Shown piece by piece: positions 1 to 29,685 of a DNA stretch of 29,685 nt (positions are counted from its first letter, which is position 1; the number at the start of each line of letters is the position of its first letter). Source of the stretch: a virus; the IMG/VR virus record IMGVR_UViG_3300030108_000156, positions 1 through 29,685 of that record. One strand, given 5' to 3'. Below the pieces are notes generated by a model. The model was not told the DNA's origin. It searched no databases and saw only the letters and a list, made by a program, of their open reading frames with translations. A program made the translations under genes and the position numbers.

Positions 1-36
1 GAAGAAAAAACATTAACAGGAGGTTTAGCTAGATAA
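1..36 (+). CDS. 3' end of DUF3310-family gene (partial)
   Basis: The window opens inside a gene. The eleven codons before the TAA at 34-36 give a C-terminus (EEKTLTGGLAR) identical to that of the complete gene at 27040-27276. The missing 5' part would lie before base 1 if the genome is circular. See the complete copy for function. Confidence 0.9.
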   Translation, partial: EEKTLTGGLAR

Positions 37-39
37 GAT

Positions 40-300
40 ATGATAAGATTTATATGTAAGTGTTGTGAAGAAACAAAAGACTTGCAAAAAGCAACATTAA
101 AAGTTATTGATGGCAAAGTAAGAACTGTAGAAGCTGTATGCAGTTGTGGTAAATATATGCAAGAATTAGAAAAAGACTTTAATGGTTTTCCAAGTCTCAT
201 TAGAACAGAACCTACATTAAGCAAAAAGAGAGATAATATGTGGAAAAGTGCAAAAGAAAAACTATGTGGAGAAAGAGGTATTAACGAATCATTTGATTAA
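40..300 (+). CDS. Small cysteine-motif protein, unknown function (copy 1)
   Basis: An 86-residue protein with a CKCC motif near residues 6-9 and a CSC motif at 34-36. The spacing suggests a small metal-binding (zinc-ribbon-like) fold, although that is inference. It starts four bases after the DUF3310 gene and is followed after one base by the next small gene, so it belongs to the early block. The second copy at 27280 differs at two residues, so the frame is clearly maintained. I cannot assign a function. Position beside NinB-like and DUF3310 genes fits a role in phage DNA metabolism or host takeover. Confidence 0.8.
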   Translation: MIRFICKCCEETKDLQKATLKVIDGKVRTVEAVCSCGKYMQELEKDFNGFPSLIRTEPTLSKKRDNMWKSAKEKLCGERGINESFD

Positions 301-301
301 T

Positions 302-508
302 ATGAGAACAAATAAAAGAACACCAAAACAATTAGAAGAATTAAGAAAAGAGGTAATAAAATATTACTTTAACAATCCACACGCAAATAGTTCTAAGTAT
401 ATGCAAGAAAAGTTTAAAGCAACTGAAAAAATGATAAGAGATATACTTAGTGCTGAATTGCAAAGAAGATTAGATAATAGTGTTATGCGTAGATGTAGCA
501 GATTATGA
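302..508 (+). CDS. Small basic helical protein, unknown function (copy 1)
   Basis: A 68-residue, Lys/Arg-rich, mostly helical protein. I chose the ATG at 302, directly after the TAA of the previous gene, rather than an upstream ATG at 248 that would overlap that gene by 53 bases. The middle (residues about 30-55) could form a helix-turn-helix, but no family is recognised. The stop overlaps the next ATG as ATGA, suggesting translational coupling to the NinB-like gene. The second copy at 27542 differs at about six residues. Its C-terminus is Arg/Cys-rich (MRRCSRL). Confidence 0.75.
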   Translation: MRTNKRTPKQLEELRKEVIKYYFNNPHANSSKYMQEKFKATEKMIRDILSAELQRRLDNSVMRRCSRL

Positions 509-888
509 AGTTTGTTATAAAGGGCAATAAAGATAAACAAAGTCTAATAAACTATTTAAAAGAGTTAGGTAATGATTATATAGTAGAAGTTAAGAAACAA
601 AGAAACAATAGAAGTAATATGCAAAACAATTACTATTGGGCTTGTATAGTACAGCCATTAGCAAATGAGATAGGATATTTTCCTGATGAAATGCACGACA
701 TACTTAAAGTAAAGTTTGCTAGTCAATGGGAAAGCATAGATATAAACGATAAGCAAGTAGGACTACAAGTAGTTAATAGTTCGGCAAGAATGAACACTAA
801 AGAGTTTGAAGTATATGCAGAGCAGATAAGAGTATGGGCATTAACAGAACTAAGTATAAGATTAATGCTACCAAATGAATTTAACTAA
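505..888 (+). CDS. NinB-like recombination protein (copy 1)
   Basis: A 127-residue protein resembling the lambda NinB (Orf) family, which binds single-stranded DNA/SSB and assists phage recombination. The visible family signature is the RSNMQNNYYWACIVQPLA segment (residues about 36-53), matching the 'R-S-x-x-Q-N-x-x-Y-W' core of NinB proteins, followed by a helical half ending in LMLPNEFN. It overlaps the upstream gene by 4 bases. It is the last gene before the putative late promoter at 890, so it closes the early block. A NinG-like gene lies at 25202, and lambda also pairs these two functions. The second copy differs at about 11 residues. Confidence 0.75.
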   Translation: MKFVIKGNKDKQSLINYLKELGNDYIVEVKKQRNNRSNMQNNYYWACIVQPLANEIGYFPDEMHDILKVKFASQWESIDINDKQVGLQVVNSSARMNTKEFEVYAEQIRVWALTELSIRLMLPNEFN

Positions 889-889
889 T

Positions 890-901
890 TTCTATTATAT
901 A
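890..901 (+). promoter_or_regulatory. Putative late promoter motif TTCTATTATATA before terS
   Basis: The 12-mer TTCTATTATATA lies in the 45-base gap between the ninB-like stop and the terS ATG at 934. The same 12-mer occurs at 2495, 13327 and 15761, each time in an intergenic gap before a structural gene block, and is retained at 28130. The embedded TATTAT resembles a -10 box and would place a start near 904, about 30 bases before terS. No clear -33/-35 element is shared between sites. Promoter function is inference from recurrence and position. Confidence 0.6.
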
Positions 902-933
902 GTATAGAATTGAATAATCAATCTTTTTCAATT

Positions 934-1206
934 ATGGATAAACGAATAAATAATGGTGGTGCTAGAAAAGGTGCAGGGCGTAAGTCTAAGGCAGCAGAAC
1001 AGAAGTTAATAGAGAATTTAACACCTATGAATGATATGGCTTTAAAGTCATTAGAGAAAGGATTAGAAAAGAAAGAACAATGGGCGGTTAAGTTATTTTT
1101 TGAATACTTTTATGGTAAACCACAACAAAGAGTAGATGTAACTACAAATGATGAAAGTATTAATATGCCTTTAATAAACTTTGTAGACTCTGAAACTAAA
1201 CAATAA
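934..1206 (+). CDS. terS: Terminase small subunit (copy 1)
   Basis: A 90-residue protein beginning MDKRINNGGARKGAGRKSK. The basic Gly/Arg/Lys-rich GARKGAGRKSK motif is typical of small terminase subunits of Bacteroidota and other phages, where the N-terminal half binds the packaging site. The segment EQWAVKLFFEYFYGKP is also characteristic. It would recognise phage DNA and deliver it to the large subunit. A TTG at 910 would add eight residues, but the ATG at 934 is the natural start. It overlaps the next gene by about 17 bases in another frame. The second copy ends one codon earlier because the CAA codon became TAG. Confidence 0.85.
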   Translation: MDKRINNGGARKGAGRKSKAAEQKLIENLTPMNDMALKSLEKGLEKKEQWAVKLFFEYFYGKPQQRVDVTTNDESINMPLINFVDSETKQ

Positions 1207-2392
1207 ATATAAAGCACTATTTGAATCTGATGCACGTTATTACATAATAACAGGTGGTAGAGGATCAGGTAAGTCATTTGCTGTAACTGTATTTCTTACA
1301 TTACTCACAATGTCAAAACACATTAGAGTATTGTTTACAAGGTACACTATGGTTTCTGCACATTTATCTATAATACCTGAGTTCTTAGAAAAGATAAGTC
1401 TATTAGGATTTGATAATATATTTAGTGTAAACAAAGCAGAAGTTGTTAACTTAGGTAATCAATCAGACATATTATTTAGAGGTATAAAAACCTCAGCAGG
1501 TAATCAGACCGCAAGTCTAAAGTCTTTACAGGGTATTAGTTGTTGGGTACTTGATGAAGCTGAAGAACTTATAGACGAAAATATATTTGACATTATTGAT
1601 TTAAGTATAAGAGAAAAGAAAGTACAAAATAGAATCATATTAGTGTTAAATCCTGTTACTAAAGAACATTGGATATATAGAAGATTTTTTGAAGAGAAAG
1701 GCGTACAAGCTGGTTTTAATGGCGTTAAAGACAATGTATGTTATATACACAGTACATACCTAGACAATATAGAAAATTTGTCTACGAGCTTCCTAGAGCG
1801 TATTAAGGCTATAAAACTACGCAATACAAAAAAGTATCAGCATTCTATAATGGGTGGTTGGTTAGACAAAGCAGAAGGTGTAGTATTTGAGAATTGGAGT
1901 ATAGGAGAATTTAACCCTAATGGATTGCAGACATCTTGTGGTATGGACTTTGGCTTCTCAGTAGACCCTGATAGTCTTACTGAAATAGCAATAGATAAGA
2001 AACAAAAGAAGATGTATCTTAAAGAACATATTTATAAGAATGGTTTAAAGTCACACGACTTAGCACAACTTGTATTAGACAAAGTAGGTAACAAGTTAAT
2101 TATTGCAGATAGTGCAGAACCTAGACTAATAGCAGACTTAAAGCATTTAGGTGTAAATATAAGGGCTGTAAAAAAAGGAACTATAGAAAGTGGTATAACT
2201 AGAATGCAAGATTATGAATTAATAGTATCACCTGAATCTGTTAATATAGCTAAAGAACTTAACAACTATGTGTATGCAGATAAAGGGTCTAAGTTATATG
2301 TAGACAGTTATAATCACGCAATAGATGGTATTCGTTATAACGTAATTTATCATTTAGACAATCCTAACTATGGTAGATACTATGTACAATAG
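1190..2392 (+). CDS. terL: Terminase large subunit, PBSX/Terminase_3 type (copy 1)
   Basis: The packaging motor ATPase and nuclease. The first ATG (1310) would remove the Walker A motif, which is readable just upstream in the same frame as GGRGSGKS. The frame is open back to a TAG at 1184-1186, and the only near-cognate initiator giving the expected N-terminus (xKLNNKYKALF) is CTG at 1190. From there the protein is 400 residues, normal for the family. Motifs: Walker A 22-29, Walker B/catalytic CWVLDEAEE around 118-126, coupling motif LNPVT about 153, RNase H-like nuclease acids in GMDFG (D253), IIADSAEP (D307) and HAIDG (D379). The copy at 28430 keeps the CTG and all motifs. Confidence 0.93.
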   Translation: MKLNNKYKALFESDARYYIITGGRGSGKSFAVTVFLTLLTMSKHIRVLFTRYTMVSAHLSIIPEFLEKISLLGFDNIFSVNKAEVVNLGNQSDILFRGIKTSAGNQTASLKSLQGISCWVLDEAEELIDENIFDIIDLSIREKKVQNRIILVLNPVTKEHWIYRRFFEEKGVQAGFNGVKDNVCYIHSTYLDNIENLSTSFLERIKAIKLRNTKKYQHSIMGGWLDKAEGVVFENWSIGEFNPNGLQTSCGMDFGFSVDPDSLTEIAIDKKQKKMYLKEHIYKNGLKSHDLAQLVLDKVGNKLIIADSAEPRLIADLKHLGVNIRAVKKGTIESGITRMQDYELIVSPESVNIAKELNNYVYADKGSKLYVDSYNHAIDGIRYNVIYHLDNPNYGRYYVQ

Positions 2393-2397
2393 AAAAA

Positions 2398-2441
2398 GGG
2401 GGTTGGCTTTTGTAATGCGTTTACGACTTAGCCAGACCCCC
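2398..2441 (+). other. Conserved hairpin directly after terL (pac/cos or transcript-end candidate)
   Basis: An 11-bp stem formed by GGGGGTTGGCT (2398-2408) and AGCCAGACCCCC (2430-2441), with one bulged G. Inside the 21-base loop is a smaller stem, GTAA/TTAC (2412-2415 with 2421-2424). On the + strand no T-tract follows. An A5 run precedes it, so as an intrinsic terminator it would work better on the minus strand, where no genes exist. The element and its flanks (2369-2445) are identical in the second copy while the surroundings differ by about 8%. Its place behind terL makes a packaging site or a structured mRNA end plausible. Confidence 0.7.
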
Positions 2442-2494
2442 ACAGAATCAATAAAACAGGCAAATATAAACATTTTAAACTAAATATCAACTTT

Positions 2495-2506
2495 TTCTAT
2501 TATATA
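2495..2506 (+). promoter_or_regulatory. Putative late promoter motif TTCTATTATATA before the tail chaperone gene
   Basis: Second instance of the shared 12-mer, ending two bases before the ATG at 2509. The embedded TATTAT occupies -11 to -6 relative to that ATG, so a transcript started at the usual distance would begin at or next to the start codon and be leaderless. The motif follows the terL hairpin, giving an end-of-unit/start-of-unit arrangement. The same spacing to ATG occurs at 15761. Confidence 0.6.
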
Positions 2507-2508
2507 TT

Positions 2509-3108
2509 ATGGAAATCAAAATCAAGAAAAAAGGTAAAACTAAAAACTACAAATTAATTAATAAATGGAGTGATGTAACTTTAGAAAAATGGTTACAACT
2601 AGTAGAAGTTGAAGGGAAAAGTAAAACAAAAGAAGCTGAAGAAACTATAACAGCATTATCTAATATACCTAAACAATTAGTTAATGAATTGTCAGTAAAA
2701 GATGTTGCTGTTATAATGAACAAAATATCTGAACTTCAATTAAAGAAAAATAGTTCTTTATGTAGGGTAATAAAAGTAGAAGGTAAAGAGTATGGATTTC
2801 ACCCTGACTTAGATGAAATTACATTAGGGGAATATGCAGACATAGAAACTTTTATTAAAAATGGTATAGAAAAACATTTGCCTGATTTAATGGCGGTCTT
2901 ATATAGACCTATATTAGAAAAGAAAAATAATGTGTATACTATAGAAGCTTATGATGGTAATATTAGAATGCGAAGTGAAACATTTAAAAATATGAAAGCT
3001 GAAGAAGTGCAAAGTGCATTGGTTTTTTTTTGGACTTTCGCCAACGAATTGTTCAAGATTTTGCCATTATATTTGATGGAAACGCTGAAGGAAATGAAAG
3101 AGCAATAG
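2509..3108 (+). CDS. Tail assembly chaperone-like protein, short (G-type) product
   Basis: A 199-residue protein. The N-terminal part contains a beta-rich segment and NKWSDVTLEKWLQLVE (residues about 18-33), a 'W-S-D-V-T-L' pattern I associate with Bacteroidota phage tail-chaperone-like proteins. The rest is mostly helical. The frame ends 26 codons after a run of nine T at 3023-3031. A second ORF in the -1 frame (3030-3287) overlaps and has no good start of its own, as with lambda G and GT. The expected role is chaperoning the tape measure during tail assembly. Family assignment is by context and architecture, since overall similarity to lambda G cannot be checked here. Confidence 0.6.
   Translation: MEIKIKKKGKTKNYKLINKWSDVTLEKWLQLVEVEGKSKTKEAEETITALSNIPKQLVNELSVKDVAVIMNKISELQLKKNSSLCRVIKVEGKEYGFHPDLDEITLGEYADIETFIKNGIEKHLPDLMAVLYRPILEKKNNVYTIEAYDGNIRMRSETFKNMKAEEVQSALVFFWTFANELFKILPLYLMETLKEMKEQ
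3024..3030 (+). promoter_or_regulatory. Candidate -1 ribosomal frameshift site (T TTT TTT)
   Basis: In the frame of the 2509 gene the codons are GTT-TTT-TTT-TGG, so bases 3024-3030 form the heptamer T_TTT_TTT, a classical X_XXY_YYZ slippery sequence. A -1 slip would continue as LDFRQRIVQDF and join the 3030-3287 frame, giving a product of about 259 residues. A weak TTGG/CCAA stem follows. Alternatively the nine-T run is an under-called homopolymer, and one extra T would fuse both ORFs permanently. Confidence 0.55.
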
Positions 3109-3287
3109 CATCGGAAAGTTTTGCAGATAAGTGGGGTTGGTTTGGTGTAATGTATAGATTAACAAATGGAGAAATAATAAATTTAGAAAGAATAACTAAT
3201 TTAAGTCTTTTAGAATGTTTAACTTGGTTGAGTTATGAAACTGACTTAAATGCACAAAATAAAGTAAATTTAAATGATAGCAAATAA
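3030..3287 (+). CDS. Frameshift extension (T-type part) of tail chaperone-like gene
   Basis: An 85-codon frame in -1 relative to the 2509 gene. The only possible independent start is a TTG inside the poly-T run, with no leader, so translation by frameshifting from the upstream gene is more likely. The protein part includes ADKWGWFGVMYRLTNGEI and ECLTWLSYE, a Trp/Tyr-rich helical block like the T domain that recruits tail proteins to the tape measure in G/GT systems. The stop overlaps the next gene's start by 14 bases. Product and mechanism are inferred from ORF architecture. Confidence 0.6.
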   Translation: MDFRQRIVQDFAIIFDGNAEGNERAIASESFADKWGWFGVMYRLTNGEIINLERITNLSLLECLTWLSYETDLNAQNKVNLNDSK

Positions 3288-3801
3288 AACTTACAATAAC
3301 GTAATAAATACTTTAAAAAATATAGGTGACAAACATCATCAAATAGCTACAGTTACAACAGGAGATATATTTGATATTAATTTAGAGAAAATGGAAAAGT
3401 TTGCACTTATGCATATAAACCCTGTTAATGTAATAACTCAAGATAGTGGTTTGATATATAACTTTCAAATTTTTATTTGTGATCTTGTAACTGAAAACAA
3501 AGATTGGACTACTAGTAATTACCAATCAGCAGAAAGACTAAGTAGCGAACAACAAGTATTAAGTGACTGTCTACAAATATCAGTAGATATAATAGCAATG
3601 CTAAGACACAGCTTATACCAGTCTACAGATGGTGATGTAAATAATCCATTATACTTTTTACAAGGACAGCAAACACTAGAACCATTTACAGAAAGATTTG
3701 ACAATCAATTAACAGGGTGGAGTTTTAGCTTAGATATATTAGTACAAAATGACTTCGATGCTTGTATAGTACCAGCATTAGGAGGTGGAGCGGGTGAATA
3801 A
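3274..3801 (+). CDS. Probable tail terminator / head-tail joining protein
   Basis: A 175-residue protein. The C-terminal segment contains RFDNQLTGWSFSLDILVQND followed by a short Pro/Gly-rich tail. A '...L-x-G-W...' strand pair before a hydrophobic strand is typical of the small alpha/beta proteins that cap tails or link tails to heads in Bacteroidota phages. It follows the chaperone-like gene with a 14-base overlap, and its stop overlaps the next ATG as TAATG, so it is translationally coupled on both sides. It could also be another minor tail protein. I see no transmembrane segment or enzymatic motif. Confidence 0.45.
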   Translation: MIANKTYNNVINTLKNIGDKHHQIATVTTGDIFDINLEKMEKFALMHINPVNVITQDSGLIYNFQIFICDLVTENKDWTTSNYQSAERLSSEQQVLSDCLQISVDIIAMLRHSLYQSTDGDVNNPLYFLQGQQTLEPFTERFDNQLTGWSFSLDILVQNDFDACIVPALGGGAGE

Positions 3802-3866
3802 TGAAATTCAAAATAGGTAAATATAAAATAGAAATAGGTTTTTTTAAAATAACAATACGATTATGA
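3801..3866 (+). CDS. 21-residue micro-ORF in the tail cluster
   Basis: ATG at 3801 overlaps the upstream stop (TAATG), and its own TGA overlaps the next ATG (ATGA), so it fills the 61-base gap exactly. The peptide, MKFKIGKYKIEIGFFKITIR plus a final Leu, alternates basic and hydrophobic residues and looks like one or two amphipathic beta strands. The gap-filling coupling on both sides is the pattern of a real gene. Alternatively the ORF only carries ribosomes across to the next start. Function unknown. Confidence 0.45.
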   Translation: MKFKIGKYKIEIGFFKITIRL

Positions 3867-4636
3867 ACTATGAAGATTTAATAGAAAAATTAAATGCAAT
3901 AAGTATAAAGTTAAAAAGTTATACAGATTACCCACAAGCTGCATCAAATAATGCTAAAAGAGTTTTAAAATATGTAGAAAAAAATGGTTGGGGTACTTGC
4001 GGTACAAACGTAGGTAAAAGAAGAGCTAATGATTTAGCAAATAGAAGACCAATCTCTAGAGATACAATATCTCGTATGGCTTCATTTAAAAGACACCAAC
4101 AACATAAAGATGTACCTTATGGTGAGGGTTGTGGAGGTCTAATGTACGATGCTTGGGGAGGAACTTCAGGTATAGAGTGGGCTATAAGAAAACTAAAACA
4201 AATAGATAAAGAAGAACTAGCAAAAATAGGAGAAAGAGGAGGAGTCAGAAAAAGCCCAAAAGCACCTAAAAGTAAAACACCAGAAAAAAATCCTAAAGGA
4301 AAAGGAACTGCTAGAGGAGATGCAAAAACATCTAGAGGTGCAAAAGTAACTAAAGAAGATGAAAAAATGTTACAAAAAAAATCAGATGATTTTAATAAAA
4401 GATATAAAGATAAGCTTGATTATGGTTCAACTATAGGACAACTAAAGACTGTTTACCAAAGAGGATTAGGTGCTTACAACACATCTCATAGTCCAAAGGT
4501 CAGATCAGCAAAACAATGGGCTTTAGCTCGTGTTAATGCATATCTTTATTTGTTAAAGAATGGAAGACCACAAAATAAGAAGTATACACAAGATAATGAC
4601 CTTTTACCAAAAGGACACCCTAAAAGTAAAAAATAA
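3863..4636 (+). CDS. DUF5824-domain structural-region protein
   Basis: A 257-residue basic protein in three parts. The N-terminal domain (about 25-115) contains NGWGTCGTNVGKRRANDLAN, RRPISRDTISRMASFKRH and MYDAWGGTSGIEWAIRKL, a conserved module seen in many phage head-region proteins. A Lys/Pro/Gly-rich linker covers about 128-170. The C-terminal domain (about 195-257) contains YQRGLGAYNTSH, WALARVNAYLYLLKNG and KYTQDNDLLPKGHP, which I recognise as DUF5824, known in crAss-like and jumbo phages without a defined function. It is probably virion-associated or an assembly factor. It begins by ATGA overlap with the micro-ORF. Confidence 0.7.
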   Translation: MNYEDLIEKLNAISIKLKSYTDYPQAASNNAKRVLKYVEKNGWGTCGTNVGKRRANDLANRRPISRDTISRMASFKRHQQHKDVPYGEGCGGLMYDAWGGTSGIEWAIRKLKQIDKEELAKIGERGGVRKSPKAPKSKTPEKNPKGKGTARGDAKTSRGAKVTKEDEKMLQKKSDDFNKRYKDKLDYGSTIGQLKTVYQRGLGAYNTSHSPKVRSAKQWALARVNAYLYLLKNGRPQNKKYTQDNDLLPKGHPKSKK

Positions 4637-4651
4637 AATAAATAATTAATT

Positions 4652-5101
4652 ATGGCAGACTTAGTAACAACAATAACAGAGACAGTAACCTTAAATGGAG
4701 CAACTAGAGGTTCATCAAACACATTAACAACAACAGGCGTAGTAGATGTATTAGAACGTATATTAACTTGCGCACATTCTAACACAACAACAGTAGCAGT
4801 ATTTAATTCTACTCCACACGGAGCAGCAGGAGCATTAGATGTTGAAAACTGTAAATACTTTCGTATAAGTAATCTTAGTACAGACCAAGACATTACAGTA
4901 GCATTTGTAACTACTAACACTAACTATCAAGTAAATGTAAGAGCAGGTGGTTCTCACGTACTATTCAAAGCAGAAAATATAGCAATAGCAGAAGAAGATA
5001 CAACACCTGCTTTTCCTACATTAGAAGATCTTGTAACAGTACAAGTAAGACCTTCAGCAACAACTGATGTTCAAGTAGAATTATTTGCAGGGCTTGTATA
5101 A
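4652..5101 (+). CDS. Small beta-rich virion protein, unknown
   Basis: A 149-residue, Thr/Val/Ala-rich protein with no charged clusters, signal peptide or catalytic motif. The composition and alternating polar/hydrophobic pattern suggest a beta-sandwich such as a capsid decoration or small tail protein. It follows the DUF5824 gene after a 15-base A-rich leader, and its TAA overlaps the next ATG (TAATG). Position between head-type and tail-completion genes supports a virion role, but I do not recognise the family. Confidence 0.6.
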   Translation: MADLVTTITETVTLNGATRGSSNTLTTTGVVDVLERILTCAHSNTTTVAVFNSTPHGAAGALDVENCKYFRISNLSTDQDITVAFVTTNTNYQVNVRAGGSHVLFKAENIAIAEEDTTPAFPTLEDLVTVQVRPSATTDVQVELFAGLV

Positions 5102-5646
5102 TGAATACAGAAAATATAGAAAGGTATTTGAATAGCTTTGGCAGAAACGTAGTTAAAGAATCTCGTGCTTTACTTAGAGAGCAAAAAGGCGATACTCGTT
5201 TAGCCAAATCTATTAGGTATGAAGTAGTTAAAACAGCTAATGGTTTTAGCACTAATTTCTATATGTTTGATTATGGTGAATATTTAGACGAAGGTGTATC
5301 AGGTAATAAACAGCAAAGATATTATACTAATTTTAAAGGTAAAAAAGAATTAAGCTCTTATAAATATACTAATAAACAACCGCCGCCAGATGTATTGTCA
5401 AGGTGGATAAAAAGAAAAGGTATTCAACCAAAAGGATTGGGTAGAGGTAGAGATAAAAATACAGGGCAATTTATTTCTAATTTAGCTTTTTTGATTGGTA
5501 AAAAAATCAAAAGAGAGGGTATAAAGTCTTTGTCATTTTTTCAAAAACCTCTAGGTTTAGGTTATAATAAATTACAAAAAGAATTATTAAAAGAAGTGAA
5601 AGCAGATATAGAATCATATATAACTACTTTCTTTAGACCAAAATAA
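5101..5646 (+). CDS. HK97 gp10-like tail completion protein
   Basis: A 181-residue basic protein. The pattern DYGEYLDEGVSG (about 58-69), followed by the YTNKQPPPDVLSRWIKRKGI block and FLIGKKIKREGI, matches gp10-like head-tail/tail completion proteins: an acidic Y-x-x-x-L-D-E-G strand, a Pro-rich helix start, then I-x-x-x-I-K-R-x-G-I before an aromatic F-F segment. Such proteins join the tail tube to the head connector. It is coupled to the upstream gene by TAATG and followed six bases later by the baseplate-type gene. Confidence 0.65.
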   Translation: MNTENIERYLNSFGRNVVKESRALLREQKGDTRLAKSIRYEVVKTANGFSTNFYMFDYGEYLDEGVSGNKQQRYYTNFKGKKELSSYKYTNKQPPPDVLSRWIKRKGIQPKGLGRGRDKNTGQFISNLAFLIGKKIKREGIKSLSFFQKPLGLGYNKLQKELLKEVKADIESYITTFFRPK

Positions 5647-5652
5647 AAATAA

Positions 5653-7077
5653 ATGGCAACAATAATAGAACAAGCACCACTTTTTCCACAAACCCCTGTA
5701 GGTCAAGAAGTTATCTTTGTGGTTTCAAATAATAATATAGTATCAACAAAAACTAGAGTAAAGTTTCAAGCTGAAGTACATATAAGTAATACTTTTGCAC
5801 CTGTGACTGCGTCTCCTAGTGATGTAGTAGGTATATTTAAAACAACACCTAATAATGCAGGAGTAGGTATATTTGACTTGAGTTCAGTAGTAGAAAATTA
5901 TGTAAGTGCTGATAATATGGCTAGAATAGGTAGCTCTTATAAAGGCACTACAACTACAGATGATGATAGACACCCTATACACCTAATAGATAAGTTTTCA
6001 GGTAATGTAAATGCTATAAGATATTTAAAAATACAATTTAAGACCGAATACTTTGACACAGAAGAGTTTTTACCAGGTGGTGCTGCTAATCCTACTTTTA
6101 ATCAATTAGTACAAGTAGAAGCTGCTAATAGTGATCTATTTCAAATATTTAATGGTTATATAAGTTATGCAGATAAGCTAGAAATATCTGGTGCAAATTT
6201 TGGATACAATGTAGGTAAGTTTAATCTATCTGCTGCTAGTAATCAATTCTTAACAAATGCGCCTGTTGTACAATATGCTAATTTAGATGATTATGGTACT
6301 GTAGGTATATTAGCACCTAATGATAACTTATCTTTTATTAAAATAATTTACAAAGACAGTTCTGGTAGTGCTTTAGGAACACCTGAAACAATAGAAAGAA
6401 AAACAATAAATGGTGCTTATGATAGCTTTAATGCTTTTATAGGTATGAACTTATTATACTTTGGTTGTTTTCCTGCAAATTTAAGAGCTGATGGTACTAC
6501 ACAATTTGCAAATCTAATTACAGCAGGTACTATACAAGGTGGTTCGATCGAAGTAACACCTTTTGATGTTGGTTCTAATCAAATAGGTAAAACATATACA
6601 ATAAAATTAAATTGTCCTGATTTAAAAGGCTATGAAAGTATAAGGGTTTGTTGGTTAAATCAATGGGGTGTGTGGGATTACTACACATTTACAAAAAAAT
6701 CTTCTAAAAACATAACTACACAAGGTAGTACATATCATCAATTAAAAGGAACGTGGAACGATAGTAAATATAGACTAGACTCTTTCAAAGGTGGTAAAAA
6801 AACATTTAGAGTAAATTCTATGGAAAAAATAACAATGAATACAGATTTTATTACAGAAGAAGAATCTATATGGTTAGAAGAATTTATAAACAGCCCAGAA
6901 GCGTATATATTAAATGGCTTTCAAACAGATAATTCTTTTGCAGCTCTTAACACTTATGTAACACCTGTTAGATTAATGACTACAAGCTATACACGAAAGA
7001 CTATTGCAAATGATAAATTAATACAATATACTTTTGAAGTAGAAAAAACTAAAACACTTAGAACACAAGCGGTATAA
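5653..7077 (+). CDS. Large tail/baseplate protein, probably distal tail component
   Basis: A 474-residue beta-rich protein without transmembrane segments. The N-terminus (PLFPQTPVGQEVIFVVSN) and the C-terminal block FITEEESIWLEEFINSPEAY followed by TPVRLMTTSYTRKTI and a final beta strand (QYTFEVEKTKTLR) resemble Bacteroidota phage baseplate or distal-tail proteins. It lies between the tail completion gene and the 920-residue tail-tip gene, coupled to the latter by TAATG. It probably forms the hub ring at the tail tip. I do not recognise a named family with certainty. Confidence 0.6.
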   Translation: MATIIEQAPLFPQTPVGQEVIFVVSNNNIVSTKTRVKFQAEVHISNTFAPVTASPSDVVGIFKTTPNNAGVGIFDLSSVVENYVSADNMARIGSSYKGTTTTDDDRHPIHLIDKFSGNVNAIRYLKIQFKTEYFDTEEFLPGGAANPTFNQLVQVEAANSDLFQIFNGYISYADKLEISGANFGYNVGKFNLSAASNQFLTNAPVVQYANLDDYGTVGILAPNDNLSFIKIIYKDSSGSALGTPETIERKTINGAYDSFNAFIGMNLLYFGCFPANLRADGTTQFANLITAGTIQGGSIEVTPFDVGSNQIGKTYTIKLNCPDLKGYESIRVCWLNQWGVWDYYTFTKKSSKNITTQGSTYHQLKGTWNDSKYRLDSFKGGKKTFRVNSMEKITMNTDFITEEESIWLEEFINSPEAYILNGFQTDNSFAALNTYVTPVRLMTTSYTRKTIANDKLIQYTFEVEKTKTLRTQAV

Positions 7078-10893: not shown

Positions 10894-10896
10894 ATT

Positions 10897-17343: not shown

Positions 17344-17353
17344 AATATAAATT

Positions 17354-19620: not shown

Positions 19621-19626
19621 TAAATT

Positions 19627-20557: not shown

Positions 20558-20558
20558 T

Positions 20559-20924: not shown

Positions 20925-20929
20925 ATAAA

Positions 20930-20937: not shown

Positions 20938-20960
20938 AATATTAATTAATACTAAATAAA

Positions 20961-21941: not shown

Positions 21942-21946
21942 TACAT

Positions 21947-22025: not shown

Positions 22026-22052
22026 CACCATATTAATCAATAAATAATTAAA

Positions 22053-22588: not shown

Positions 22589-22589
22589 T

Positions 22590-22982: not shown

Positions 22983-22996
22983 ATAAATAAACAAAA

Positions 22997-23305
22997 ATGG
23001 AAATTACAGGAAAATTAATTAAGAAGTTTGACATAGAGTCAGGCATAAGTAAAACAGGTAAAGAATGGAGTAAACAGTCTATACTAATTGAACAAAATAC
23101 AGAATACAACAAAGAAATAGTAATAAGTGCTTTTGGAGATAAAATAGAAAAGTTAAAAAATTTACACGAAGGTGATAAATTAAAAGTTTTGTGTAATGTA
23201 TATTCAAGAGAATACAATGGAAGATACTTTCACAATATAGATGGGTATTGGTTTGCAAAAGAAGGAGAAGCTGTAGAAGAAGATAATAATGATATGCCTT
23301 TCTAA
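22997..23305 (+). CDS. SSB-like protein, DUF3127 family
   Basis: A 102-residue protein with an OB-fold pattern: MEITGKLIKKFDIESGISKT, EWSKQSILIEQNTEYNKEIV, then the Phe/Gly strand ISAFGDKIEKL and the C-terminal GDKLKVLCNVYSREYNGRYF. This matches DUF3127, a Bacteroidota SSB-like family often found in phages. The acidic tail (EEDNNDMPF) is like the C-terminal tip that SSBs use to recruit partners. It would coat single-stranded DNA during phage replication. It lies between the annealing-like gene and the DnaA-IV-like gene. Confidence 0.8.
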   Translation: MEITGKLIKKFDIESGISKTGKEWSKQSILIEQNTEYNKEIVISAFGDKIEKLKNLHEGDKLKVLCNVYSREYNGRYFHNIDGYWFAKEGEAVEEDNNDMPF

Positions 23306-23306
23306 T

Positions 23307-23834
23307 ATGACATCAAAAGATAACTTTAAAGAAATATGTGATCTTACTACAAAAGTACTAGGATTACCTAAAAATCATCTACTAGTAAAAAATAGAAAAG
23401 TAGAATATATGATGCCTAGAGCTGTTGCTTGTATGATAAGTAGATTAGAAAATTGTACAAAACATAGCACTATGTCTAAGGTATTAGGATTAAATAGAGC
23501 ATCAATATATTATTATGAAAAACAACACCATAAACGTTTTAAGTTTTGGGCAGCTTATAGAAAAGCATTTAATAAAGTGTATATAGAATATAAGAACTCA
23601 GAAAGTGATAAAAAGACTTTTTTACGTTCTGCATCTATATATAACCACTTGATTAACAAGGGTGTAGAAGAAAGTGATAGACCTGATTTATCTATACTAA
23701 TTAAGTCGGGTAATGTTTCTACTGAAATAAAAAGTTGTTACTTTGAATGTTCAGCACAATTAAAAAAGATTAAGTTTGCAATGAAAGAATATAAATATGA
23801 ACTTAAACTAATTGACCTTAATGAAGCAATCTAA
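23307..23834 (+). CDS. DnaA domain IV-like DNA-binding protein
   Basis: A 175-residue protein. The first 80 residues look like the C-terminal DNA-binding domain of DnaA: a helix with KVLGLPKNHLLVKNRKVEY, then MPRAVACMISRLENCTKHST and MSKVLGLNRASIYYYEKQHH, matching the order 'K-x-R-K ... P-R-x-x-A ... T-x-x-S-x-x-x-I-G/L-x-x-x-R-x-x-x-x-Y'. No AAA+ ATPase domain is present, so it is not a full DnaA. It may bind the phage origin or compete with host DnaA. ATG at 23307 was chosen over 23289, which overlaps the SSB-like gene. It overlaps the initiator gene by 14 bases. Confidence 0.65.
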   Translation: MTSKDNFKEICDLTTKVLGLPKNHLLVKNRKVEYMMPRAVACMISRLENCTKHSTMSKVLGLNRASIYYYEKQHHKRFKFWAAYRKAFNKVYIEYKNSESDKKTFLRSASIYNHLINKGVEESDRPDLSILIKSGNVSTEIKSCYFECSAQLKKIKFAMKEYKYELKLIDLNEAI

Positions 23835-24426
23835 ACCAAATTACTATGCTGTGATTCCTGCTGATGTTAGATATAGCAAGAAGTTAACACCTAATGCTAA
23901 ATTACTTTATGCAGAAATTACAGCACTATGTAATATGAATGGTAAATGTATAGCATCTACACAATATTTTGCTAATCTTTATGAAGTTACTAAGACATCA
24001 ATACAAAAATGGTTAAAGATTTTAGAAGATAATAAATTTATTAAAAGAGAAGTAACTTACAAAGAGGGTACTAAAGAAATATTAAGTAGGCACATAACTT
24101 TGGTTAAGTACCCTACACAAAATAAGTTAAGAGATAATACTAATATAAATATAAATAATAATAATACTACGTATAGTAATAAAGGGCGTTTTAAAAAACC
24201 TGATATATTAGATATTAAAAATTATTGTTTAGAAAGAAAAAATAATGTAGATGCTGAAGCTTTTTATGACTTCTATGAATCTAAAGACTGGAAGATAGGT
24301 AAAAATAAGATGAAAGATTGGAAAGCTGCAATAAGAACTTGGGAAAGAAGAGAAACAAAAAAACCAACTATGTCTAAGTTAGATGCACAAATAGATGCTT
24401 GGGTAAATGCAAAAAAATTATTATGA
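23821..24426 (+). CDS. Replication initiator-like protein with winged helix (HTH_36)
   Basis: A 201-residue protein. Residues about 8-95 form an HTH_36-type winged helix (VIPADVRYSKKLTPNAKLLY, then ASTQYFANLYEVTKTSIQKW and NKFIKREVTY), as in phage replisome-organiser and Rep proteins. An Asn-rich linker (about 105-120) leads to the C-terminal module WKIGKNKMKDWKAAIRTWER (about 158-177), typical of phage replication proteins that recruit host helicase or loader. ATG at 23821 fits better than the TTG at 23812. It is the likely initiator. The A/T-rich linker DNA (24132-24190) could contain the origin, as in lambda O. Confidence 0.75.
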   Translation: MKQSKPNYYAVIPADVRYSKKLTPNAKLLYAEITALCNMNGKCIASTQYFANLYEVTKTSIQKWLKILEDNKFIKREVTYKEGTKEILSRHITLVKYPTQNKLRDNTNININNNNTTYSNKGRFKKPDILDIKNYCLERKNNVDAEAFYDFYESKDWKIGKNKMKDWKAAIRTWERRETKKPTMSKLDAQIDAWVNAKKLL

Positions 24427-24548
24427 TCGAATTTTTAAGACACTTTACTGGATTATGTGGAGAACCACACCCTAGTTTATTAACATTAATACTAGGAACT
24501 CCTTTTCTAAGTTATGTAATATATAAAATAAAAAAAAGAAATAAATGA
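24423..24548 (+). CDS. Small membrane protein, conserved-looking
   Basis: A 41-residue protein with an N-terminal amphipathic stretch (MIEFLRHFTGLCGEPHPS), one transmembrane helix (about 19-36, LLTLILGTPFLSYVIYKI) and a basic end (KKRNK). ATG and TGA overlap the neighbouring genes by four bases each, so it is translated in the early operon. The GLCGEPHPS segment looks conserved rather than random, but I cannot name the family. It may be an early membrane-directed factor. Confidence 0.55.
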   Translation: MIEFLRHFTGLCGEPHPSLLTLILGTPFLSYVIYKIKKRNK

Positions 24549-24913
24549 AACCTTTAAAACAAGAAAACTTAAAAAAATTATCAGAAAAAGTATTAGACTT
24601 ATTATCAAAGACATCAGTAGAAATAGGTCATAAAACTGATGCTCAAACTTTAGCAACACTATCTAAAATATTTGCTACAGACTTAATTACTGAAAATAGA
24701 TTTAACAGATTGACTTTCAACCAGATAGAAGATGCTTTTAGAATTGGAGTCAGATTTGGAAAAGATGAACCTTTCTTAAACATTAGAACTTTTTACAAAT
24801 GGGTGTATAGTCATAAGAAAACAATAGATGATGCTTACTATAAAGTACACACACTTAACAAACCTAAAAAAGAAGTACCTTATTATCAAGAACCTTTAAA
24901 ACTATTAATATGA
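24545..24913 (+). CDS. Helical early protein, possibly replication-associated
   Basis: A 122-residue helical protein with LTFNQIEDAFRIGVRFGKDE (about 58-77) and PFLNIRTFYKWVYSHKKTID. Similar 'A-F-x-x-G-V-x-x-G ... N-x-R-T-F-x-x-W' patterns occur in small proteins next to phage replication initiators, sometimes with helicase-loader-like roles. The role here is inference from position between the initiator and NinG. It overlaps both neighbours by four bases (ATGA). Confidence 0.55.
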   Translation: MKPLKQENLKKLSEKVLDLLSKTSVEIGHKTDAQTLATLSKIFATDLITENRFNRLTFNQIEDAFRIGVRFGKDEPFLNIRTFYKWVYSHKKTIDDAYYKVHTLNKPKKEVPYYQEPLKLLI

Positions 24914-25218
24914 AAATAAAAGAAAAAGTAAGATTCTGGTTAGAAAAACACGAATATTTAAGAGATGATGACAATCGCTTATGTGCTAACATTTGGAATG
25001 ATGAAATTAAAGAATATGTAGACATAAATAAAGCTGGTGCAAGGACATTTTTAAGATTATACTCTTTTGGTAAGATAACACCTGCCCCTAGTATAAAAAG
25101 AGCAAGAGCAAAATTACAAGAAGAAGAACCTAAGTATAGAGGTCAAAAATATTATCAAAGAAAAGGTATATATCAAGATCAATGGAGAAATAAATTAGGT
25201 TATGAAAAGCGTAAGTAA
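24910..25218 (+). CDS. Early phage protein, unknown family
   Basis: A 102-residue basic protein. A segment with KVRFWLEKHEYLRDDDNRLC (about 6-25) and SIKRARAKLQEEEPKYRGQK (about 60-79) is the type often seen in phage accessory proteins of replication regions, without known function. No metal site or membrane segment is visible. It overlaps the NinG-like gene by 17 bases and the upstream gene by four, placing it within the recombination group. Confidence 0.65.
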   Translation: MKIKEKVRFWLEKHEYLRDDDNRLCANIWNDEIKEYVDINKAGARTFLRLYSFGKITPAPSIKRARAKLQEEEPKYRGQKYYQRKGIYQDQWRNKLGYEKRK

Positions 25219-25609
25219 ATTAAAAAAAGAATTAGATAAATGGTTTAGTCTTTATATAAGATTAAGAGAAGCTACTGAAGAGGGTATGGTACAATGTTTT
25301 ACTTGCGGAAAGGTTGCACATTATAAAGATGGTATGCAATGTGGTCACTTCCAAAGTCGAAAACACCAGGCTACTAGATGGAATGAGCAGAACTGCCAAG
25401 TACAATGTGTAGGTTGTAATATGTTTAAGCAAGGCGAACAATGGAAGTTCGGACTTAACCTAGATGCAAAGTATGGTAGTAGTACATCTTTTGATTTGCA
25501 CGTATTATCTAAACAGACCTTAAAAATTACTTTAGGAGAATATGAAGAGGACATAAGATATTATAAAGCACTTGTTAATAACTTAAAAAAAGAAAAAAAT
25601 TTAAAATAG
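25202..25609 (+). CDS. NinG-like (Rap-type) recombination nuclease
   Basis: A 135-residue protein matching lambda NinG/Rap: the start KSVSKLKKELDKWFSLYIRL, then a Cys/His zinc region with CFTCGK (C32, C35), MQCGHFQSRKH (C47, H49, H55) and NCQVQCVGCN (C65, C69, C72). NinG proteins are structure-specific endonucleases acting on branched recombination intermediates. With the NinB-like gene (505 and 27745), the annealing-like gene and the SSB-like gene it forms a recombination set. It ends in an Asn/Lys-rich tail. Confidence 0.85.
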   Translation: MKSVSKLKKELDKWFSLYIRLREATEEGMVQCFTCGKVAHYKDGMQCGHFQSRKHQATRWNEQNCQVQCVGCNMFKQGEQWKFGLNLDAKYGSSTSFDLHVLSKQTLKITLGEYEEDIRYYKALVNNLKKEKNLK

Positions 25610-25618
25610 TTTTTTTTA

Positions 25619-25626
25619 TATATTTG
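25619..25626 (+). promoter_or_regulatory. Weak -7-like box TATATTTG before the 25631 gene
   Basis: After a run of eight T, TATATTTG fits the host -7 consensus and ends four bases before the ATG at 25631. No -33 element is visible and the distance would give an almost leaderless mRNA. It could supply extra transcription of the small gene and of the sigma-like gene behind it. Confidence 0.3.
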
Positions 25627-25630
25627 GTAA

Positions 25631-25987
25631 ATGAGAAAACCAATATATTGCAACAAGCAACACGAAGTAATCGTAGAAGCTTATTTATATATGGTTCAAG
25701 ATTTTGTAAAAGATATAAGTACAAAAACAAAGTATAATAGTTTTTCTGAAGTTTTAGATATACTAATAGAATACCATAACAATTATGGTAAAGGAGTAAG
25801 AGAAAATAACTATTGGGATTGGTTGATGATTTTGCCTATAAATTTATCTATAATGACAAATGGATATTTTGCTGGTATAGAAACAAAAAGAAACACAAAA
25901 AAAATACACTCGTATAGAGTTTTATTAAATGAAATGGTACACGATGTCGTAAATAAAATAGAAAAATTAGAACCTTTAAATGAATAA
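25631..25987 (+). CDS. Helical early protein upstream of sigma-like factor, unknown
   Basis: A 118-residue, mostly helical protein (MRKPIYCNKQHEVIVEAYLY at the start) with an aromatic stretch NNYWDWLMILPINLSIMTNG (about 59-78) and ending in NKIEKLEPLNE. No known domain. It overlaps the start of the sigma-like gene by eight bases, so the two are co-translated. It might modulate that protein, for example as an anti-sigma or co-activator, but this is speculation from position only. Confidence 0.6.
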   Translation: MRKPIYCNKQHEVIVEAYLYMVQDFVKDISTKTKYNSFSEVLDILIEYHNNYGKGVRENNYWDWLMILPINLSIMTNGYFAGIETKRNTKKIHSYRVLLNEMVHDVVNKIEKLEPLNE

Positions 25988-26534
25988 AATCTATATAGAA
26001 ATATCAAAGTTAGGTGATAAATTTAGAGATATGTGTTATAGTATCACAAAAGATAAAGAAAAAATAGATGATGCTGTACAAGAATTAATGTTATATCTTC
26101 TTCAAATAAACCCTGAAATTATTAAAAAGATTTATGATGCAGATGGCATAGATGGTATTACAAGATATGGTGCGGTAGTTTTACGTAGGGCTTTAACAAG
26201 CACAAGAAGTCCTTTTTATTATAAATACAGAAAATATTATAAAAATCTTGTAGGTATAAACTATCAGACAACCTCAACACAATTTCATAAATGGGTATAT
26301 AATATGCCTAATGAAGTAGATCATATACAAAAAGAAAAACAAGATAAGTTAGAAAAGATAGATGTAGTCTTAGACAATTTAGATAGTTGGTATGATAGAG
26401 AATTATTTAAGTTATATTACTATGAAGGTAATACACTTGACTCTTTAGCAGCTAAGACTAAGATAAGTAGAAATAGTTTATTTACTACAATAGACAAAGT
26501 AAGAACAATAATAAAGGAAGAATTAAGTGAATAA
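25980..26534 (+). CDS. Phage sigma-70-family-like factor
   Basis: A 184-residue protein with sigma-like regions. Residues about 12-45 (FRDMCYSITKDKEKIDDAVQ, then ELMLYLLQ) look like sigma region 2.1-2.2. RRALTSTRSPFYYKYRKYYK (about 69-88) fits the following part, and 'S-x-x-S-P-F-Y-x-K-Y-R' is a pattern I know from Bacteroidota phage sigma factors. Residues about 136-180 (WYDRELFKLYYYEGNTLDSL, then AAKTKISRNSLFTTIDKVRT) form a region 4 helix-turn-helix. The linker is short, as in ECF-type factors. It could direct host RNA polymerase to the 12-mer late promoters. Its place late in the early operon fits such a role. Confidence 0.72.
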   Translation: MNKIYIEISKLGDKFRDMCYSITKDKEKIDDAVQELMLYLLQINPEIIKKIYDADGIDGITRYGAVVLRRALTSTRSPFYYKYRKYYKNLVGINYQTTSTQFHKWVYNMPNEVDHIQKEKQDKLEKIDVVLDNLDSWYDRELFKLYYYEGNTLDSLAAKTKISRNSLFTTIDKVRTIIKEELSE

Positions 26535-26931
26535 GTTTTTTACATCACAACAAGTATATGAAGATAGACTTGCTATATGTAGGACTTGTAATTATTATTT
26601 TAAACCTACAGGAAGTTGTAAGGTGTGTAAATGTTTTATGCGTATCAAGTGCAGGTTAGCTCCAATGGAGTGTCCAAAGAAGTTTTGGACTAAAACTACT
26701 GTAATAGAAATACCTGAAGATTTACCACAAGAGCTAATAGATGAAATACTTGATATTTGGCAATATTTAAAAACAGGAGTAGCACAAGGACAAGAAGCAA
26801 AGATTAAAATGATGGAACTATATAACACAATAACAAATTCTAACTACAACCCTACAACAAGTTGTGGTTCTTGTTTGTCTACAGCGTATGATTCTATAAA
26901 AAAATTATATATTAAATACAGTAAGATATGA
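26527..26931 (+). CDS. Cysteine-rich Zn-binding phage protein
   Basis: A 134-residue protein starting at GTG 26527, eight bases before the end of the sigma-like gene. The N-terminal domain has C18, C21, C31, C34, C36, C42 and C49 (RLAICRTCNYYFKPTGSCKV, then CKCFMRIKCRLAPMECPKKF), a widespread small phage zinc motif. The acidic middle (EIPEDLPQELIDEILDIWQY) is helical, and a second Cys pair (CGSC, 113-116) lies near the end. It probably binds zinc and perhaps nucleic acid. No precise function known. Confidence 0.7.
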   Translation: MNKFFTSQQVYEDRLAICRTCNYYFKPTGSCKVCKCFMRIKCRLAPMECPKKFWTKTTVIEIPEDLPQELIDEILDIWQYLKTGVAQGQEAKIKMMELYNTITNSNYNPTTSCGSCLSTAYDSIKKLYIKYSKI

Positions 26932-27053
26932 TATTCACAATAATGTTAGTATTTATAGCTTTTGCTATTGGTTGGTGGAAAGGTTTTGATGTAGGTTACA
27001 GAAAAGGAGAATTAGATGCAAATATAAAAAATTGGAATAATGGAAAAAAATAA
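26928..27053 (+). CDS. Small membrane protein with N-terminal TM helix
   Basis: A 41-residue protein: one hydrophobic helix at residues 2-16 (IFTIMLVFIAFAIGW), then a polar, basic tail containing GFDVGYRKGELDA. ATGA overlap couples it to the Zn-binding gene, and its end overlaps the DUF3310 gene by 14 bases. Short N-terminal TM plus a Gly/Tyr-rich helix is common among phage accessory membrane proteins. No function assignable. Confidence 0.55.
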   Translation: MIFTIMLVFIAFAIGWWKGFDVGYRKGELDANIKNWNNGKK

Positions 27054-27276
27054 AATACCTGAATATTACAAAGGAAAGAATGGCTATATGGCAAAAGATG
27101 TAGTAAGTAACTTTGATTTATCCTATAATATAGGCACAGCAGTTACATACTTATTAAGAAGTAAACGTAAACATAATGATGGTGGTGTAGAAGATATACG
27201 TAAAGCTATAAATCATTTACACTTTGAGTTAGAAAGATTAGAAGAAAAAACATTAACAGGAGGTTTAGCTAGATAA
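27040..27276 (+). CDS. DUF3310-family protein (complete copy)
   Basis: A 78-residue protein matching DUF3310, a small helical phage family often annotated as nucleotide kinase-like: FDLSYNIGTAVTYLLRSKRK (about 26-45) and GGVEDIRKAINHLHFELERL (about 50-69). The pattern 'N-x-G-x-A-V-x-Y-L-x-R ... D-x-x-K-A-x-x-x-L' is diagnostic. The biochemical role is uncertain. Its last 12 codons (with stop) are repeated at bases 1-36. Confidence 0.8.
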   Translation: MEKNKIPEYYKGKNGYMAKDVVSNFDLSYNIGTAVTYLLRSKRKHNDGGVEDIRKAINHLHFELERLEEKTLTGGLAR

Positions 27277-27279
27277 GAT

Positions 27280-27540
27280 ATGATAAGATTTATATGTAAG
27301 TGTTGTGAAGAAACAAAAGACTTGCAAAAGGCAACACTTAAAGTTATTGATGGCAAAGTAAGAACTGTAGAGGCTGTATGTAGTTGTGGTAAATATATGC
27401 AAGAAATAGAAAAAGACTTTAATGGCTTTCCAAGTCTCATTAGAACAGAACCTACACTTAGTAAAAATAGAGATAATATGTGGAAAAGTGCTAAAGAAAA
27501 ACTATGTGGAGAAAGAGGTATTAACGAATCATTTGATTAA
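27280..27540 (+). CDS. Small cysteine-motif protein, unknown function (copy 2)
   Basis: Second copy of the gene at 40-300, 86 residues, with two amino acid changes (Leu to Ile near residue 43, Lys to Asn near residue 63) and about a dozen base changes. The CKCC and CSC motifs are kept. Substitutions are mostly synonymous, which argues that both copies come from functional, selected genomes. It follows the complete DUF3310 gene and so shows the natural upstream context of copy 1. Confidence 0.8.
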   Translation: MIRFICKCCEETKDLQKATLKVIDGKVRTVEAVCSCGKYMQEIEKDFNGFPSLIRTEPTLSKNRDNMWKSAKEKLCGERGINESFD

Positions 27541-27541
27541 T

Positions 27542-27748
27542 ATGAGAAAAAATAAAAGAACACAAAAAGAATTAGAAGAATTAAGAAAAGAGGTAATACA
27601 ATATTACTTTAACAATCCACACGCAAATAGTTCTAAGTATATGCAAGAAAAATTTAAAACAACTGAAAAGATAATAAGAGATATACTTAGCGCTGAATTG
27701 CAAAGAAGATTAGATAATAGTGTTATGCGTAGATGTAGCAGATTATGA
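27542..27748 (+). CDS. Small basic helical protein, unknown function (copy 2)
   Basis: Counterpart of 302-508, 68 residues, differing at about six residues, most of them in the first 25 positions and around residue 40. Start and stop contexts are identical to copy 1, including the ATGA overlap with the next gene. The conserved C-terminus (LDNSVMRRCSRL) suggests this end matters. No function known. Confidence 0.75.
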   Translation: MRKNKRTQKELEELRKEVIQYYFNNPHANSSKYMQEKFKTTEKIIRDILSAELQRRLDNSVMRRCSRL

Positions 27749-28128
27749 AGTTTGTGATAAAATGCAATAAAGATAAACAAAGCCTGATAAACTATTTGAA
27801 AGAATTAGGTAATGATTATATAGTAGAAGTTAAGAAACAAAAAAACAATAGAAGTAATATGCAAAACAATTATTACTGGGCTTGTATAGTACAGCCATTA
27901 GCAAATGAGATAGGATATTTTCCGGATGAGATGCACGACATTTTAAAGGTAAAGTTTTCTAGTGAATGGCAAAGCATAGATATAAACGATAAGCAAGTAG
28001 GATTACAAGTAATTAATAGTACAGCAACAATGAACACTAAAGAGTTTGAAATATATGCAAATCAAATTAGAGTATGGGCTTTAACAGAACTAGGTATAAG
28101 ATTAATGCTACCAAATGAATTTAATTAA
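27745..28128 (+). CDS. NinB-like recombination protein (copy 2)
   Basis: Counterpart of 505-888, 127 residues with about 11 substitutions. The core RSNMQNNYYWACIVQPLA is unchanged, while changes cluster at residues about 72-110. The pattern is what is expected for orthologues from two strains. It is again followed by the TTCTATTATATA motif and terS. Confidence 0.75.
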   Translation: MKFVIKCNKDKQSLINYLKELGNDYIVEVKKQKNNRSNMQNNYYWACIVQPLANEIGYFPDEMHDILKVKFSSEWQSIDINDKQVGLQVINSTATMNTKEFEIYANQIRVWALTELGIRLMLPNEFN

Positions 28129-28129
28129 T

Positions 28130-28141
28130 TTCTATTATATA
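28130..28141 (+). promoter_or_regulatory. Putative late promoter motif TTCTATTATATA before terS (copy 2)
   Basis: The 12-mer is identical to the one at 890, although the genes on both sides carry several percent substitutions; the next base downstream (G in copy 1) is A here. Retention in the diverged copy supports function. Confidence 0.6.
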
Positions 28142-28173
28142 ATATAGAATTGAATAATCAATCTTTTTCAATT

Positions 28174-28443
28174 ATGGATAAACGAATAAATAATGGGGGC
28201 GCTAGAAAAGGTGCAGGGCGTAAGTCAAAAGCTGAAGAGCAAAAGCTTATAGAAAATTTAACGCCTATGAACGCAAAAGCTTTACAGTCTTTAGAGCAAG
28301 GATTAGAAAAGAAAGAACAATGGGCGGTTAAGTTATTTTTTGAATACTTTTATGGTAAACCACAACAAAGAGTAGATGTTACGTCTAACGAAGAGAGCAT
28401 TAATATGCCTTTGATAACATTTGTAGATACTGAAACTGAATAG
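28174..28443 (+). CDS. terS: Terminase small subunit (copy 2)
   Basis: Counterpart of 934-1206, 89 residues. The basic GARKGAGRKSK motif and EQWAVKLFFEYFYGKP are unchanged, but residues about 22-45 and the C-terminal 15 vary (for example NDMALKSLEKG becomes NAKALQSLEQG). A CAA-to-TAG change shortens it by one codon relative to copy 1. Higher divergence here than in terL might mean different packaging-site specificity or simply relaxed constraint. Confidence 0.85.
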   Translation: MDKRINNGGARKGAGRKSKAEEQKLIENLTPMNAKALQSLEQGLEKKEQWAVKLFFEYFYGKPQQRVDVTSNEESINMPLITFVDTETE

Positions 28444-29632
28444 TAAATATAACGCACTATTTTCATCAGATGCTAGATACTTTATCATAACAGGCGGTAG
28501 AGGGTCTGGTAAGTCTTTTGCTGTAACTGTATTTCTTACATTACTTACAATGACAAAAGGAATAAGAGTATTGTTTACTCGTTATACTATGACATCTGCA
28601 AGACTATCAATAATACCTGAGTTTTTAGAAAAGATAAATCTATTAGGTTATGATAATATCTTTAGTGTAAACAAAGCAGAAGTTGTTAACTTAGGTAATC
28701 AGTCAGATATACTATTTAGAGGTATTAAGACATCAGCAGGTAATCAGACTGCTAGTCTAAAGTCTTTACAAGGCATAAGTTGTTGGGTATTAGATGAAGC
28801 TGAAGAACTTATAGATGAAAATATATTTGATATTATTGATTTAAGTATTAGAGAAAAGAAAGTACAAAATAGAATCATATTAGTATTAAATCCTGTTACT
28901 AAAGAACATTGGATATATAGACGCTTTTTTGAAGAGAAAGGCGTTCAGGCTGGTTTTAATGGCGTTAGAGACAATGTATGCTATATACATAGTACATATC
29001 TCGACAACATAGAAAACCTCTCTACGAGTTTCCTAGAGCGTATTAAGGCTATAAAACTACGCAATACAAAAAAGTATCAACATTCTATAATGGGTGGTTG
29101 GTTAGACAAAGCAGAAGGTGTAGTATTTGAGAATTGGAGTATAGGAGAATTTAACCCTAATGGATTGCAGACATCTTGTGGTATGGACTTTGGTTTCTCA
29201 GTAGACCCTGATAGTCTTACTGAAATAGCAATAGATAAGAAACAAAAGAAGATGTATTTAAAAGAACATATTTATAAGAATGGTTTAAAGTCACACGACT
29301 TAGCACAACTTGTATTAGAAAAAGTAGGTAATAAGTTAATTATTGCAGATAGTGCAGAACCTAGACTAATAGCAGACTTAAAGCATTTAGGTGTAAATAT
29401 AAAAGCAGTAAAAAAAGGAACTATAGAAAGTGGTATAACTAGAATGCAGGATTATCAATTAATAGTATCACCTGACTCTACTAATATTGCTAAAGAATTA
29501 AACAATTATGTCTATGCAGACAAAGGTTCTAAGTTATACGTAGACAAGTATAATCACGCCATAGATGGAATCCGCTATAACGTAATTTACCACTTAGATA
29601 ATCCTAATTATGGTAGATACTATGTACAATAG
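28430..29632 (+). CDS. terL: Terminase large subunit, PBSX/Terminase_3 type (copy 2)
   Basis: Counterpart of 1190-2392, 400 residues from the same CTG codon. The in-frame upstream TAG (28424-28426), CTG and KLN start are conserved although about 20% of bases around them differ between copies; the first ATG (28550) again lies after the Walker A motif. Walker A (GGRGSGKS), DEAEE, MDFG, ADSAEP and HAIDG motifs are intact. The middle (about residues 205-325) is nearly identical to copy 1, while the first 75 residues and the end vary more. Confidence 0.93.
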   Translation: MKLNSKYNALFSSDARYFIITGGRGSGKSFAVTVFLTLLTMTKGIRVLFTRYTMTSARLSIIPEFLEKINLLGYDNIFSVNKAEVVNLGNQSDILFRGIKTSAGNQTASLKSLQGISCWVLDEAEELIDENIFDIIDLSIREKKVQNRIILVLNPVTKEHWIYRRFFEEKGVQAGFNGVRDNVCYIHSTYLDNIENLSTSFLERIKAIKLRNTKKYQHSIMGGWLDKAEGVVFENWSIGEFNPNGLQTSCGMDFGFSVDPDSLTEIAIDKKQKKMYLKEHIYKNGLKSHDLAQLVLEKVGNKLIIADSAEPRLIADLKHLGVNIKAVKKGTIESGITRMQDYQLIVSPDSTNIAKELNNYVYADKGSKLYVDKYNHAIDGIRYNVIYHLDNPNYGRYYVQ

Positions 29633-29637
29633 AAAAA

Positions 29638-29681
29638 GGGGGTTGGCTTTTGTAATGCGTTTACGACTTAGCCAGACCCCC
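29638..29681 (+). other. Conserved hairpin directly after terL (copy 2)
   Basis: Identical to 2398-2441: the 11-bp bulged stem and the nested GTAA/TTAC stem. No mismatch is found between 29609 and 29685. The window stops four bases after it. Confidence 0.7.
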
Positions 29682-29685
29682 ACAG

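Follow-up and report, generated by a model that had tools for sequence, protein, structure and literature searches.

The window, an entire IMG/VR virus record of 29,685 bp, is very probably a contig that makes one turn of a 27.24-kb phage genome and then continues into the corresponding terminase region of another strain that was present in the sample. The 8% difference between its two ends is, in all likelihood, an assembly effect of strain mixing and not an unusual genome structure. The record is to be read as a single 27.24-kb genome with two alternative ninB-terL alleles; as genome structure, the diverged ends are of no importance. The basis for this reading is the sequence relation between the ends, a terminus of exactly k length, a break at the same fork in another contig, relatives with a single copy of the region, and alleles that are not sisters.

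The two diverged ends of the record

The preliminary description reported that the two ends overlap at a constant offset of 27240, without indel and with about 190 substitutions, and realignment bears this out. Positions 1–2445 and 27241–29685 align ungapped from end to end with 191 mismatches in 2445 positions (7.8%; BLAST identity 92.2%), and the window contains no other large self-repeat. The left copy is referred to as allele A, the right copy as allele B, and the single-copy part between them as S; S plus one allele makes a unit of 27,240 bp (Table 1). Allele B would come from a second strain haplotype.

Mismatches between A and B begin at 90 and end at 2368. The exact runs that this leaves, 89 bp at the start and 77 bp at the end, go unmentioned in the preliminary description and are the key to the interpretation. 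Their density along the overlap is uneven, ranging from 1 to 20 per 100 bases, and most of them are third-position changes in codons. The same open reading frames, TerL included, are open in both copies. As a result, the copies are taken as two functional alleles and not as a single sequence read with errors. Between the two TerL genes there are 13 non-synonymous and 57 synonymous codons (NG86 dN 0.030, dS 0.343), and both copies of the region are under purifying selection.

Table 1. Features of the window, with the evidence for each.
Feature	Position	Strand	Evidence
Allele A, ninB/terS/terL region, contig left end	1–2445	+	Self-alignment; exact runs; 2336–2445 joins S in 3300020436_000137
Allele B, ninB/terS/terL region, contig right end	27241–29685	+	Self-alignment; exact runs; B-specific 56-mer in relatives
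S, shared single-copy part	2446–27240	+	Self-alignment; 3300020436 contigs; genes in the order of G006, which is closed
NinB/Orf-like recombination mediator, allele A	505–888 (B copy 27745–28128)	+	phrog_72, E 2.1e-17
Putative small terminase subunit	910–1206 (B copy 28150–28443)	+	Position before terL only; phrog_38011, unknown function
TerL, large terminase subunit, allele A	1190–2392 (B copy 28430–29632)	+	Terminase_3 and Terminase_3C above Pfam cut-off
Exact 89-bp start run, shared graph stretch ahead of the A/B fork	1–89 (= 27241–27329)	+	L223 ends at 27329
Last 77 bases, merge vertex of the k=77 graph and contig stop	29609–29685 (= 2369–2445)	+	Run lengths; simulation
82-bp exact A/B run, cross-link longer than 77	1058–1139 (copy 28298–28379)	+	Self-alignment; simulation
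113-bp exact A/B run, second cross-link	1841–1953 (copy 29081–29193)	+	Self-alignment; simulation

The 77-base terminus and the probable path of the assembly

A contig from a de Bruijn assembler ends on a vertex and shares exactly k bases with its neighbours, and 77 is among the standard k values of SPAdes. The terminal exact identity at the right end of the window is 77 bases, which matches an assembler k, and in a complete relative, G016 (sample 3300020370), the identical ends are likewise exactly 77 bases long. Other relatives end on runs of this kind: exact end identity is 99 bases in G006, G008 and G020 and 123 in G023, and eight relatives with mismatched end overlaps have an exact run of 76, 98, 126 or 127 bases at one end. 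Such run lengths (77, 99, 127 and the like) are assembler settings, not biology; for the window's record, we infer both the assembler and its k. Exactly 77 preceding matches occur at only 4 of the 2445 overlap positions, so that a stop of this kind would have a chance of 0.16%; for a stop at a run of 55, 77, 99 or 127 taken together, the chance is about 0.6%.

The proposal is that a de Bruijn-graph assembler built this record from a sample with at least two strains of a double-stranded DNA phage, whose 27.24-kb map is circular or circularly permuted. At the resolution of the assembler, the strains would share one common path over about 24.8 kb, while their ninB-terL alleles would lie about 8% apart. 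The path would begin near the fork, pass through allele A, continue around S and enter allele B, halting where B rejoins the path already used, that is, after 77 identical bases. Each real genome would carry one allele only, and presumably no single molecule carries both. The preliminary description had also remarked that the overlap, about 9% of the unit genome, is of the order of a headful overhang; this is probably coincidental, since its length is set by where the alleles match for 77 bases.

The proposed path resembles two known assembly outcomes. Like the end overlap that de Bruijn assemblers leave on circular contigs, it goes around a circular map and stops at a shared run of length k; here, however, the second pass goes through the allele of the other strain, and the overlap is 8% diverged before its last 77 bases. 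It is also like the strain bubbles of metagenome graphs, with alleles of about 92% identity, shared runs longer than k, and forks and merges at the boundaries of exact runs, except that the bubble here is unrolled into a single linear record instead of being collapsed or broken (PMC11443906). The reasons why de Bruijn assemblers are unable to phase strains over shared stretches longer than k have been given (PMC11443906). Because the exact A/B runs of 82 and 113 bases exceed 77, a k=77 graph cannot hold phase across them, and the phase of A and B across the 1058–1139 cross-link is, from the sequence, unproven.

When the circles A+S and B+S were simulated with k=77, the result was a shared unitig at 2369–27329 and arms ending at 2445 and 29685. 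A simulated linear molecule A-S-B gave k=77 unitigs identical to those of the two circles, and the simulation alone cannot decide between them. Since both structures yield the same graph, the argument has to draw on the k-length terminus, on the relatives and on the history of the alleles. The contig starts at position 1 and not at 13, which is 12 bases ahead of the expected fork vertex; this early start needs an extra in-branch or some other contig-end detail.

Two contigs from sample 3300020436, each identical to the window at 100% over its full length, cover most of S. One of them, L223, equals window 21907–27329 and stops one base short of the first A/B mismatch; another contig of the same virus is thus broken at the A/B fork. 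This end is predicted equally by a linear molecule with A as its left end, and it excludes only an arrangement in which A has some other sequence ahead of it. The other contig, G001, equals window 2336–21195 and carries the A bases at 2350–2368; in contig 3300020436_000137 the A end is connected to the shared part at 100% identity. G001 begins one base past the A/B mismatch at 2335, whereas B would merge only at 2369. This hints at a third allele there, and a drop in coverage could be an alternative. Between G001 and L223, which are otherwise identical to the window, 21196–21906 is a gap, perhaps at another strain fork in that sample. In viral_contigs, a direct junction of B with the start of S was not found; exact searches for such a junction, or for sequence running past the fork, returned only the two 3300020436 contigs. 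Neither the A-specific patterns (1195–1250 and 1747–1789) nor a B-specific pattern from 988–1031 had an exact match elsewhere.

Related genomes, allele ancestry and other explanations

Related genomes bear on how many copies of the region one genome carries. G006, a 27,343-bp contig whose ends match exactly over 99 bp (unit 27,244), runs colinear with the window over the full gene order. Its single ninB-terS-terL block is flanked by homologues of the last gene of S and of the first, and the contig is broken at a different place on the map. G008 and G016 are arranged like G006, with breaks elsewhere. Among the 29 long records searched, the window is the only one with two full TerL matches; the 17 further long relatives that gave a terL match had one full terL each, and no close relative or closed circle had two copies. 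G013 has one full terL and a fragment at its opposite end, and is itself a diverged wrap. Since terL lies at many distances from the contig ends of the relatives, there is no fixed duplicated segment.

End overlaps with mismatches are common in this clade. The 28 long relative contigs examined comprise 5 with exact overlaps, 17 with mismatches and 6 with none. The mismatched overlaps fall at different map positions and range from 98 exact bases with one or two mismatches to about 7 kb at about 75% identity in G009. This last contig (L173–L174; 33,901 bp) is about 7 kb above the unit length and probably wraps into another species of the clade. Tests that look for identical ends call such records linear and inflate both their length and their terL count. 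A simple test for wraps that cross strains is to compare the exact end run with the assembler k.

The preliminary description proposed comparing the two copies with related genomes, and this comparison separates them. In a terL tree of 82 sequences with 200 bootstrap trees, A and B lie within one well-supported set of 8 and are sisters in 0 of the 200. Each is nearer to L003, L004 and L005 (94–95%) than to the other (92%). A comparison in steps of 150 bases places A with the L003/L005 lineage over 601 to 1650 (2–7% different), and B with the L031/L006/L007 lineage over 1051 to 1500 (1–6% different) and the L003/L005 lineage over 1651 to 2250 (0–2% different). The 56-base B segment at 1195–1250 is exact in L006, L007 and G006. 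A and B thus appear in these comparisons as non-sister mosaics of two lineages seen elsewhere, and by both the bootstrap trees and the mosaic comparison they belong to different strain haplotypes. The lineage switches may reflect homologous recombination between strains, or some of them may be assembly phase errors.

Of the three readings offered at the outset, a crossing of strains on the second turn is the one that these results strongly support. In a second reading, one genome carries a diverged duplication of ninB-terL, linear as A-S-B or in tandem, with both copies in use. Open frames and purifying selection in both copies would suit it, and at k=77 the graph by itself cannot tell it from two strains; but the exact 77-bp terminus would then be a 0.16% coincidence, all other long relatives that match terL have a single full copy, A and B are not sisters, and part of the terL of B is exact in G006, which closes with one copy. 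We regard such a duplication as highly improbable. The third reading is a packaged hetero-concatemer, in which a headful cut from a recombinant concatemer of two strains leaves a heterozygous terminal redundancy. Two strains probably do coexist, the region is mosaic, and an overlap of 9% would be in keeping with headful packaging. Such molecules, however, would be rare and permuted, so that one with fixed ends is not what a consensus assembly should be expected to yield, and the right end sits on a k-length run. Headful redundancy gives identical ends on one molecule, and the ends here differ at 7.8%. This reading is not needed and has very little probability. By either route, it is most unlikely that linear packaged molecules carry two diverged, functional terminase modules at their ends. 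A real terminal redundancy whose ends differ by sequencing error has next to no probability, being ruled out by the codon pattern (the 7.8% differences are concentrated at third codon positions with frames kept), and a B-specific 56-base stretch is exact in other contigs.

Identity of the phage and features of TerL

The window encodes TerL (Terminase_3), a portal, a head maturation protease, a tail terminator and an endolysin, together with SSB, a replication initiator, NinB, NinG/Rap and a transcription-regulator-like protein. The nearest named phages are Nonlabens P12024S/L (genus Inhavirus), with TerL 62% identical over 100% of the query and portal 33% identical over 77%; the genome of P12024S is 35.7 kb, compared with the 27.24-kb unit here. 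A megablast search of window 1–24000 against the phage collection gave no DNA match to phage records, and the relation to Inhavirus lies at the protein level only, short of genus-level nucleotide similarity. By these protein comparisons, the phage would be a distant relative of P12024S/L, and since these are its nearest named phages, a flavobacterial host is likely. The open reading frame at 10897–12558 is just 32–42% identical to its homologue in relatives, while flanking genes are mostly more alike; its only match is phrog_32985, of unknown function. Such divergence might be as expected of a receptor-binding or tail protein.

TerL scores 92.4 bits for Terminase_3 (cut-off 23.2) and 49.4 bits for Terminase_3C (cut-off 26.7), and contains the Walker A motif GGRGSGKS. 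Over 1184–1276 (B copy 28424–28516), ATG, GTG and TTG are absent between the in-frame stop and Walker A. TerL is likely translated from a near-cognate CTG at 1190, or by way of a +1 frameshift out of the terS-like frame that overlaps it. This CTG is kept in 78 of the 78 sequences compared while adjacent codons vary, and TerL probably starts there. In P12024S, the annotated TerL start is a TTG that lies one codon upstream of the CTG position.
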